A stretch of DNA of 36,245 bases from a virus: the IMG/VR virus record IMGVR_UViG_3300011440_000019, positions 1-36,245 of that record. One strand, written 5' to 3'. The translations under genes were made by a program, and so were the position numbers. Positions within the stretch are counted from its first letter, which is position 1; each line of letters begins with the position of its first letter. Below the pieces are notes generated by a model that searched no databases, was not told the DNA's origin, and saw nothing but the letters and a program-made list of their open reading frames with translations. Below, piece by piece: positions 17,585 through 23,598 of this stretch.

Positions 17585-18372
17585 CGATCCTGACACCGAG
17601 GGTGGAGGTGCCGCGGGACCGGTTCGGGCGCCCGTTGATCACCCCACCCGACGGCGGCCAACCCGTCCCGTACGTCAGAGCGACTACGTGGGCGAAAACG
17701 CTCGATGACATGTGGGGGCTCACCAACTGGAAGCTGCGCCAAACCGCTGTCGGTCTTGCTGATCGTCCCGACCTGATGCTTGCAGTTACCACTCAACGCG
17801 ACGACAAGAAGGCGTTGGATGCGACGGTGCAGGAGGCGATGGAAGCGGCCAAGTCAAAGGCCGGGGCCACAACCGGGACGGCGCTACACAAGCTCACCGA
17901 GTATGTCGACCGAGGGGAAGACCTGCCCACCATCCCCCCCGAGACGCTTGCCGACCTGGCCGCATACGAGGACGCTACGAAGGGGCTCGAGGTGGTGGCG
18001 ATCGAACAGTTCGTTGTCGTCGATGACCTACAGGTAGCAGGCACATTCGACCGGATCGTCCAGTGGCAGGGCCGCAACTACATCGCTGACCTCAAAACTT
18101 CACGAACCGTCGACTACGGGATGGGTTCAATTGCGATCCAGCTCGCTCTGTACTCCCGGGGCGCCCTATACGACCACCTCACCGGGACACGGGACCCGCT
18201 CAACGTGGACCAAGACAAGGCGCTGGTGTACCACCTCCCGGCCGGAAGCGGCCAATGCCGCATCCTCACCGTTGACATCAACCTGGGATGGGCCGCGGCT
18301 CTACTCGCCGGGAGGGTCCGCAAGTTCCGCACCTTCGCCAAACAGGGCCTCCGCTACGAGGGCACACCATGA
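17581..18372 (+). CDS. RecB/Cas4-like PD-(D/E)XK exonuclease
   Basis: The 263-residue protein fits the RecB/Cas4-type nuclease group common in actinophages. Motifs in order: TGTALHKLTEY (H103), IEQFVVVDDLQVAGTFDRIV (E142, D157), YIADLKTSR (D170 and K172) and the QLALYS signature (Q187-Y191). D157, D170 and K172 would hold metal and catalyse hydrolysis. No helicase part and no four-cysteine iron-sulfur cluster is visible. Such enzymes process DNA ends for recombination or replication. It overlaps the WhiB gene by 4 nt. Confidence 0.8.
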   Translation: MTILTPRVEVPRDRFGRPLITPPDGGQPVPYVRATTWAKTLDDMWGLTNWKLRQTAVGLADRPDLMLAVTTQRDDKKALDATVQEAMEAAKSKAGATTGTALHKLTEYVDRGEDLPTIPPETLADLAAYEDATKGLEVVAIEQFVVVDDLQVAGTFDRIVQWQGRNYIADLKTSRTVDYGMGSIAIQLALYSRGALYDHLTGTRDPLNVDQDKALVYHLPAGSGQCRILTVDINLGWAAALLAGRVRKFRTFAKQGLRYEGTP

Positions 18373-18806
18373 CTCGCACGCAGGTGGGTGAGTGTGTGTA
18401 CCGGGGTTGCCGCAAACACCAGTTCTCCCGGCACCTGTGCTCCGCGCATTACAGCGAATGGTGGCGGGGTGGGGCCAAAGGGTGGAAGTACAACCCGGCC
18501 GGCATGCGCCTCCCGATCCCGACACCAACCACGATCCCGGTGGATGGTGAATGGCGGGACCTCGCCGCCTGCAAAGGCACCGACCCGGACATGTGGTTTG
18601 CTAAGGAGGCCGGTTGCCACTACGACGACGAATGGTTCGACCGGGCACGCAACATGTGCGCCGACTGCCCCGTACTCACCAACTGCTACCAATGGGTGCT
18701 CGGGTTGGCATGGGAACAGGATGTGGCCGGGATCATCGCCGGCATGGACCCCGGGCAACGCACCTACCACCGCCGTGTGCGCCGCAACAATGGCCGGGAC
18801 CGCTGA
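18369..18806 (+). CDS. whiB: WhiB-family iron-sulfur regulator with extra zinc-like N-terminus
   Basis: Residues about 60-145 show the WhiB pattern: LAACKGTDPDMWF, then NMCADCPVLTNC, with cysteines C68, C97, C100 and C106 as cluster ligands. GIIAGM takes the place of the beta-turn GVWGG motif, before a basic tail. WhiB proteins bind a 4Fe-4S cluster and contact the sigma factor; they are confined to actinobacteria and their phages, which fixes the host group. The first 35 residues add ECVYRGC...HLCSAHYSEW, a Cys/His motif not part of WhiB and similar to the start of the protein at 14792. Phage WhiB proteins can inhibit host WhiB, as TM4 WhiB does with WhiB2. Confidence 0.88.
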   Translation: MTRTQVGECVYRGCRKHQFSRHLCSAHYSEWWRGGAKGWKYNPAGMRLPIPTPTTIPVDGEWRDLAACKGTDPDMWFAKEAGCHYDDEWFDRARNMCADCPVLTNCYQWVLGLAWEQDVAGIIAGMDPGQRTYHRRVRRNNGRDR

Positions 18807-21981: not shown

Positions 21982-22175
21982 CGTTAGGTATCGTTCCCAG
22001 TGTCGGCCCAGTGGCGGTCATTTACACCCCCCCGTTGACCGCCACTGGGAAAACCCGTAAGACAGACAACATACATATATATAAAGTATCACTGAGAGTA
22101 CGCACGCGAGGCAGAGAGCCAACCCCAGTGGCGGTCGCCGCCACTGGACCGACACTGGGACAACGATACCTAACG
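21982..22175. repeat. Nested inverted repeats, candidate replication origin
   Basis: Outer arms 21982-22017 and 22138-22175 pair over 35 of 36 positions, with one 2-nt bulge. The first block is a perfect 14-mer, CGTTAGGTATCGTT with AACGATACCTAACG. Each arm can also fold alone: 22007-22020 pairs perfectly with 22036-22049 (14 bp), and 22125-22134 pairs with 22138-22147 (10 bp). The decamer CCAGTGGCGG occurs four times in alternating orientation. The centre is AT-rich. Location right after the prim-pol gene and this iteron-plus-AT layout fit a replication origin; a recombination or resolution site is an alternative. Confidence 0.7.
22069..22090. other. AT-rich core within the inverted-repeat region
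   Basis: These 22 bases consist almost only of A and T, with a TATATATA centre, in an otherwise very GC-rich genome. The stretch lies between the two sets of inverted repeats and is the natural candidate for the duplex-unwinding element. Confidence 0.6.
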
Positions 22176-22717: not shown

Positions 22718-23332
22718 ATGAACCGTGACCCCTGCGCCGAATCCCGCGACTGTGTATGGCGCTCCTCCCGCCGCCTCACCAACACCGGACGCGCCACCAC
22801 CCCCCAAGACCTGTGCATCGCCATCGGCGACACCGGGCAACCCTGCGGACGCAAGGCCACCACCCACCTGGCGGCCCACTACGACGAAGACGGGCAACCC
22901 GTACCAGGGCAACCCTTCTGCCAATACCATCACCAGCTCATCTTCGAAGCCATCGCCGAACCCTGGTTCGGTACAGCCTCACTCGCAGAGATAGACCAAC
23001 TCCAAGCCGAACGGGCCCGTGCACTCCAACGCATCAAACCATCCCGCGGTAAACCCGTCTCACAATGGGTGTACTTCGTAGCCCGCGGCGACAAGGTCAA
23101 GATCGGGACCAGCGTCAACCCGACGAAACGGATACGTGACCTCGAGTGCGCCGGCGGCAGCGCCTTCGACCAGGTCGTGCTCACCCCCGGCAGACAAGCC
23201 CTCGAGAGCCGGTACCATCGCCAGTTCGCTGAGCACCGCCTAGTCGGCGAATGGTTCACCCTCGCTCAACCCATCCGGTTGGAGATGCACCGGCTCCGCA
23301 TCGAACAAGAACGCAGCGACCAACTCAGGTGA
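22718..23332 (+). CDS. T5orf172/MUG113-type GIY-YIG nuclease-like protein
   Basis: The 204-residue protein has a Cys/His part (DLCIAIGDTGQPCGRKATTH and PFCQYHH, at about 33-72) followed by a GIY-YIG superfamily domain at about 115-195. Its motifs are WVYFVARGDKVKIGTSVNP, a conserved Arg pair (R138, R140), E163 and H167, and VGEWF. This subgroup, T5orf172, occurs widely in phages, often combined with DNA-binding parts. It has its own promoter. ATG 22718 overlaps the end of a tiny upstream frame (MPETP), which may tune its translation. Biochemical function is not established for the group. Confidence 0.78.
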   Translation: MNRDPCAESRDCVWRSSRRLTNTGRATTPQDLCIAIGDTGQPCGRKATTHLAAHYDEDGQPVPGQPFCQYHHQLIFEAIAEPWFGTASLAEIDQLQAERARALQRIKPSRGKPVSQWVYFVARGDKVKIGTSVNPTKRIRDLECAGGSAFDQVVLTPGRQALESRYHRQFAEHRLVGEWFTLAQPIRLEMHRLRIEQERSDQLR

Positions 23333-23598
23333 CTGCCACCCGCCGCCCCCGCCGGCGCCCCTGGTACCGCTGGCCCAAGGGTCTACGCCAAGCCATCCTC
23401 GAGCGTGACAACCACCTCTGCCAGATCCGGTTACCCGGCTGCACCATGACCGCCGACACCGTCGACCACATCCGCCCCGTCTCCCAAGGCGGCGCATGGT
23501 TCGAACCCACCAACCTAAGGGCAGCCTGCCGATGGTGCAACACCAGTCGAGGCGACGGGCGACCCACCTCCGCCCCCACCCAGTCACCCAACTGGTGA
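23329..23598 (+). CDS. HNH endonuclease of the packaging module
   Basis: The 89-residue protein shows a compact HNH: LCQIRLPGC, then DTVDHIRPVSQGG, NLRAACRWCN. Asp-His and the final Asn are present, as are two zinc-binding cysteine pairs. Small HNH proteins just upstream of terminase genes are conserved in HK97-type cos phages and are needed with the terminase for cutting at cos (shown for HK97 gp74). GTG 23329 overlaps the preceding stop by 4 nt. It is thus likely a packaging component rather than a mobile nuclease. Confidence 0.82.
   Translation: MTATRRPRRRPWYRWPKGLRQAILERDNHLCQIRLPGCTMTADTVDHIRPVSQGGAWFEPTNLRAACRWCNTSRGDGRPTSAPTQSPNW

Follow-up and report, generated by a model that had tools for sequence, protein, structure and literature searches.

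A probable replication origin of mirror-image site clusters directly behind a prim-pol/helicase gene and its counterparts in actinobacterial phages

The inverted-repeat structure located directly behind the primase-helicase gene of the phage genome analysed here is very probably the phage replication origin onto which that protein is loaded, the steps from binding to priming being those that we infer further below. The genome was analysed as a single stretch of 36,245 nucleotides (hereafter referred to as the window), and the reading of positions 21982-22175 as an origin, which the original prediction had put forward as probable, is well supported by sequence comparison: the position and the layout of the structure are conserved among relatives, the sequences of its sites track the C-terminal domain of the adjoining protein, and the initiator and the repeats have been replaced jointly in a sister phage. 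With less confidence, we consider it likely that the structure represents a widespread and hitherto undescribed class of actinobacterial phage origins, in which a dyad of three plus three sites would load two facing MCM-like prim-pol rings, the core would hold a conserved element (ATATccgCAGGTCAGA) and a readable code would relate the winged helix to the sites, and that the PICI-type layout is general to phage-borne MCM-like initiators.

The structure begins at the first base past the stop codon of the initiator gene (21982). Its outer arms (21982-22017 and 22138-22175) are matched at 35 of 36 positions with a 2-nt bulge (GT) in the right arm, in agreement with the earlier description; the pairing is perfect over the first 14 of 14 positions and, after the bulge, 21 of 22 positions are matched as far as 22017/22138. 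Both of the perfect inner hairpins described previously were also recovered, the left one (22007-22020/22036-22049) with 14 bp and a loop of 15 nt and the right one (22125-22134/22138-22147) with 10 bp and a loop of 3 nt. The structure is the top-scoring ungapped inverted repeat of the entire window, with a score of 20, whereas 100 shuffles averaged 12.9 and never exceeded 16, and the segment folded as DNA yields z-scores of -11.3 (top strand) and -11.2 (bottom strand), with none of 200 shuffles as good.

The decamer CCAGTGGCGG is present in four exact copies of alternating orientation, as had been observed, at 22008(+), 22039(-), 22125(+) and 22138(-). Two further copies carrying one mismatch (CCAGTGTCGG), at 21997(+) and 22149(-), were absent from the first list, and the exact and the one-mismatch copies taken together have the order >>< core ><<. 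With the looser pattern GTRKCG, eight sites are found within approximately 180 nt, compared with a window average of about one per 200 nt, in the order >>>< core ><<<, and the outermost 14-bp arms probably constitute a degenerate fourth site (GTATCG), one per side. Three to four sites are located on either side of a core of 74 nt (22050-22123), the earlier description of which as almost pure A/T was overstated: its A+T content is 57%, rising to 77% in the richest 30 nt (start 22071), and pure A/T is confined to ATATATATAAA. The spacer of the left cluster is long, the words of sites L2 and L3 starting 33 nt apart as against mostly 8-18 nt in relatives. The 8-mer iteron score of the window itself is unexceptional, being equalled by 2 of 14 control stretches, and the case for an origin in the window is made by the inverted repeat, the strict 3+3 signature described below and the position. 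The features are listed in the table.

Table. Features of the initiator gene and the putative origin in the window
Feature	Position	Strand	Remarks
Initiator gene, 752 aa	19723..21981	+	prim-pol (AEP), predicted MCM-like AAA+ helicase of DUF3987 type, C-terminal winged helix
Putative replication origin	21982..22175	.	two dyad-related clusters of putative initiator sites around A+T-richer core
Outermost left arm CGTTAGGTATCGTT	21982..21995	+	perfect partner 22162-22175; GTRKCG match at 21988; putative role as site
Site L1 CCCAGTGTCGG (>)	21996..22006	+	
Site L2 CCCAGTGGCGGTC (>)	22007..22019	+	
Site L3, inverted CCCAGTGGCGGTC (<)	22037..22049	-	
Core with CATACATATATATAAAGTAT, putative melting/priming region	22050..22123	.	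57% A+T
Site R1 CCCAGTGGCGGTC (>)	22124..22136	+	
Site R2, inverted CCAGTGGCGG (<)	22138..22147	-	
Site R3, inverted CCCAGTGTCGG (<)	22149..22159	-	
Outermost right arm	22162..22175	-	pairs with 21982-21995
Right-hand recombination junction versus sister contig L004	22405	.	99.2% identity rightwards; leftwards, initiator and origin missing from L004

The initiator protein carries an N-terminal Prim-Pol domain (PF09250, Pfam E 5.7e-14; PHROGs match: DNA polymerase/primase). DUF3987 is matched by 36 of 39 aligned helicases, the window protein itself giving an E-value of 0.004, which is under the curated cut-off, and the helicase half can on sequence similarity be placed near DUF3987. In the AF2 model of this half (pLDDT 94), an AAA+ domain, a long helix and, in the last ~50 residues, a winged helix are predicted. 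The best Foldseek matches of the model are MCM2-7 subunits (E 8e-6, probability 1.0, TM 0.41), with Cdc6/Orc1 ranked lower among its neighbours; the modelled fold is thus MCM-related, the protein being by sequence no member of the MCM family. The nearest relatives of the prim-pol half are in Arthrobacter phages (Bridgettevirus), which have a differing helicase half and no such repeats behind the gene, and the helicase half most resembles those of Nonomuraea plasmid III and of mycobacterial prophages; judging from these similarities, the initiator looks like a mosaic of the two halves. In the Arthrobacter phage Eileen, with which the prim-pol domain alone is in common, no such repeats are present directly behind the gene. 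The early region of the window also includes a gene for a WhiB-like transcription factor (18288-18806), which overlaps the end of the upstream exonuclease gene.

The first comparisons, with a Nonomuraea phage-like plasmid (L006), a Streptomyces plasmid (L009) and a prophage of M. abscessus (L010), revealed short repeats in mirror-image clusters flanking a core, directly behind the prim-pol genes. In the Streptomyces plasmid (4210-4540), which has the prim-pol half joined to another helicase type, the mirror-image clusters behind the gene are GCAGGGAC and GTCCCTGC, which suggests that the layout extends past the present helicase type. Relatives were collected from an alignment of five helicase halves, giving 80 viral and 80 genome loci, the sources of which, where named, are nearly all actinobacterial. 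For each of 157 loci, the 450 nt behind the helicase stop were compared with up to 60 other, mostly coding, stretches of the same locus. In 76 of the 157 loci, it was the post-stop stretch that held the top inverted repeat. After redundancy reduction at 80% protein identity to 119 clusters, the top repeat is found directly behind the initiator stop in 54 clusters (2.5 expected), and an independent iteron score ranked this stretch first in 67 clusters (8 expected). Either score was positive in 75 of the 119 clusters, and in the other 44 no structure behind the helicase gene was detectable by either score. Dulem virus 32 and Gordonia phage Reyja were considered as exceptions and rejected as such, repeats being present beneath an annotated gene that covers the post-stop stretch.

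The commonest site order, >>< core ><<, is that of 20 clusters, the window included. Scanning of whole loci for the strict 3+3 signature identified it in 34 loci, in 32 of them just behind the stop and in two overlapping the end of the gene (L022, L136), and in none of the shuffled loci; in the window it occurs at one place only. The median inner length is 119 nt, and the A+T content of the core is above that of the gene in 52 of 53 relatives (averages 0.49 and 0.31, respectively). The layout of the relatives is conserved in position, with site letters that differ. A DNA search of the window region against phage records gave no match, and for the window prim-pol protein alone no close relative was found among viral or genome contigs. 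As far as can be judged from sequence, dozens of distantly related phages and prophages of actinobacteria carry this layout, spelled in other letters, at the corresponding position.

These comparisons also bear on the proposal that the structure is a miniature inverted-repeat transposable element (MITE) inserted behind the gene, to which its perfect 14-bp ends and its length of ~194 bp would be suited. In relatives, a structure with different letters occupies the corresponding position behind the gene, there is no second copy in the window, and no convincing target duplication was found. The search for the decamer in relatives, named earlier as a check, did not trace the site itself to related genes: the exact site pair is represented elsewhere in IMG/VR by six strays, none of which adjoins a prim-pol. 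With neither multiple copies nor target duplication found, identity as a MITE was rejected, and practically no probability is assigned to it.

A motif search in the cores of 52 relatives identified ATATccgCAGGTCAGAgg (short form ATATccgCAGGTCAGA), which occurs in both orientations between the site clusters, with a log-likelihood of 175; none of six shuffled sets gave more than 73. The motif is also given as CAGGTCAGA; relatives that carry it include L047, L098, L026, L088 and L132, and in the window it is weak (AAACCCGTAAGACAGACA). One may guess that it serves as a priming or melting signal.

The original prediction further held that the DNA is able to alternate between a single long cruciform and two separate hairpins. 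Such a switch is physically possible, but what has been conserved is the sites: among 31 relatives sharing the site order of the window, complementarity just outside the outermost sites starts at 0.77 and has fallen to background (0.28) after ~8 nt, and the left and right spacings agree in only 14 of 32. Since pairing outside the sites is at background in relatives, long continuous stems look like a by-product of the mirror-image site order, and the repeats are better read, on this comparative evidence, as oriented protein-binding sites than as a cruciform. An origin acting through extruded DNA, the initiator reading the shape of a long stem or of two hairpins as proposed for pRN1 and phage BIP-1, would be in keeping with the closely matched arms (35/36) and the strong fold (z = -11) of the window, and also with findings on pRN1, where replication was rescued by a compensatory mutation in the stem and no sequence-specific binding was seen (PMC4234260). 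However, the loss of pairing outside the sites and the often unequal spacings argue against such an origin, as does the correlation of site sequence with the C-terminal domain, and it is regarded as unlikely. The nearly continuous stem is unusual to this window, and DNA shape might therefore play some role here.

The relation between the sites and the protein was examined in 70 non-redundant loci. With the helicase core controlled for, loci with more similar C-terminal domains also have more similar sites (partial r 0.28, permutation p 0.001), a relation that binding of the sites by the winged helix would produce, although the correlation may retain some phylogenetic signal; in the converse control, no such correlation with the helicase core was detected in the same loci (partial r 0.05, p 0.13). 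The sister contig L004 (IMGVR_UViG_3300009609_000093) is nearly identical to the window rightwards of the junction given in the table and is without a match to it between 19341 and 22405. In this contig the initiator and the repeats are jointly replaced by a different module with an ATPase that we take to be RepA-like, a label read from the translation and not taken from a database match; the end of the replaced unit lies a little behind the repeats. Many GGGGACCAC-like repeats are located at the end of and behind this ATPase gene (L004 7296-7480), in an array that ends in the inverted repeat GGGGACCAAGGGGGCTACC / GGTAGCCCCTGGTCCCC, and they are perhaps the origin of the replacement module.

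To the right of the structure, the window encodes a T5orf172/MUG113-type (GIY-YIG-like) protein (22718-23332) and an HNH endonuclease (23251-23598) in overlapping frames, which sit between the origin and the terminase gene. GC skew, which had been named as a further check, does not point to the structure: the window minimum is at 23.6 kb rather than at 22.1 kb, and relatives are without a skew switch at the structure. Between 19000 and 26500, where the main genes are co-directional, the skew is strong and of opposite sign, about -0.25 to -0.32 at 20-23 kb and +0.24 at 24-26 kb, and its turning point at ~23.6 kb lies 1.5 kb to the right of the putative origin.

A location directly behind a stop codon together with a strong fold might also indicate a transcription terminator or an mRNA-processing structure of the early operon. 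Yet no terminator-like site at the structure and no Rfam match were found, the long arms stand 120 nt apart around an A+T-richer core, and the oriented 3+3 sites and their link with the C-terminal domain would be left unexplained, so that this function is considered very improbable indeed. Palindromic site pairs might likewise bind a repressor, and the structure could then be no origin at all but an operator, serving autoregulation or the binding of a phage repressor; iteron origins commonly have a double role as origin and operator. An operator of this kind is very unlikely in view of the location downstream of the gene, where no promoter-like site was found at the structure, of the A+T core and dyad layout, which fit an origin, and of the site sequence, which follows the initiator itself.

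In the preferred reading as an origin, the C-terminal winged helix of the prim-pol/MCM-like helicase would bind both clusters of oriented sites, and the mirror-image arrangement of the clusters would lead two rings to assemble face to face around the core. The helicase would melt the A+T-richer core, the prim-pol domain would lay primers in it, and host enzymes would extend these, probably in both directions. If true, this would supply a simple rule by which to locate origins in a large group of phages, prophages and phage-plasmids of actinobacteria; genetic work on these bacteria would gain ready-to-use replicons, and the loading of MCM-like rings in facing pairs could be modelled in a small bacterial system with a single protein.

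Among known systems, the PICIs have their origin in the region immediately 3' of rep, always with two iteron sets flanking an A+T-rich region and with a positive plasmid test, and it was stated by the authors that no other known bacterial replicon has this origin layout (PMC6092414). Binding by the PICI/SaPI initiator helicase takes place through the C-terminal domain and apparently involves two hexamers (PMC6092414, PMC7581432). The window is similar in that the putative origin is directly 3' of the initiator gene and its site sets flank an A+T-richer core. It differs in having its own terminase, portal, head protease and major head protein genes, and is therefore a phage and no PICI satellite; in its primase, which is an AEP prim-pol joined to a helicase of predicted DUF3987 type; in its host group, the Actinobacteria; and in the 3+3 dyad, which is the common site order of the present group. 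The occurrence of a layout once stated to be unique to PICIs as a common feature of full-size actinobacterial phages appears to be new with respect to the open-access literature searched and would, if the origin reading is true, contradict the published claim that confines it to PICIs.

In pRN1, a stem-loop 3' of the prim-pol gene is required, and a similar stem-loop has been noted in phage BIP-1 (PMC4234260). The likeness of pRN1 and BIP-1/BPP-1 to the window comprises an AEP prim-pol with a helicase and a C-terminal winged helix, and an inverted repeat directly 3' of the gene (PMC4234260), which in the window is likewise large. On the other hand, pRN1 has been described as having a single ~100-nt stem-loop, no iterons and no detectable specific binding, whereas here oriented repeated sites are conserved and a continuous stem is not, pairing outside the sites being at background in relatives. 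The Cch2/Cch proteins of SCCmec resemble the present initiator in its proposed role, being self-loading MCM-like/AAA+ helicases, the C-terminal domain of which binds repeats downstream of their own gene (PMC7581432), and differ in having a separate primase and three direct iterons, inverted repeats being dispensable for binding there. A helicase function has been predicted for DUF3987 ATPases joined to AEP primases, with origin recognition as a possible role of their winged helix, and the PrimQH/all3500-type proteins have the combination of AEP, DUF3987 ATPase and winged helix that is predicted here (PMC5862659); in the available text of that source no origin DNA is described for them, and the present survey offers a candidate DNA partner. 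The alpha protein of phage P4, with its ori/crr, is likewise a primase-helicase with a C-terminal winged helix, which in P4 reads short repeats, according to its citation in PMC4234260, and differs by its TOPRIM-type primase. By analogy with these systems, the window would have an origin that works like that of the PICIs, served by a protein of the pRN1/AEP type.
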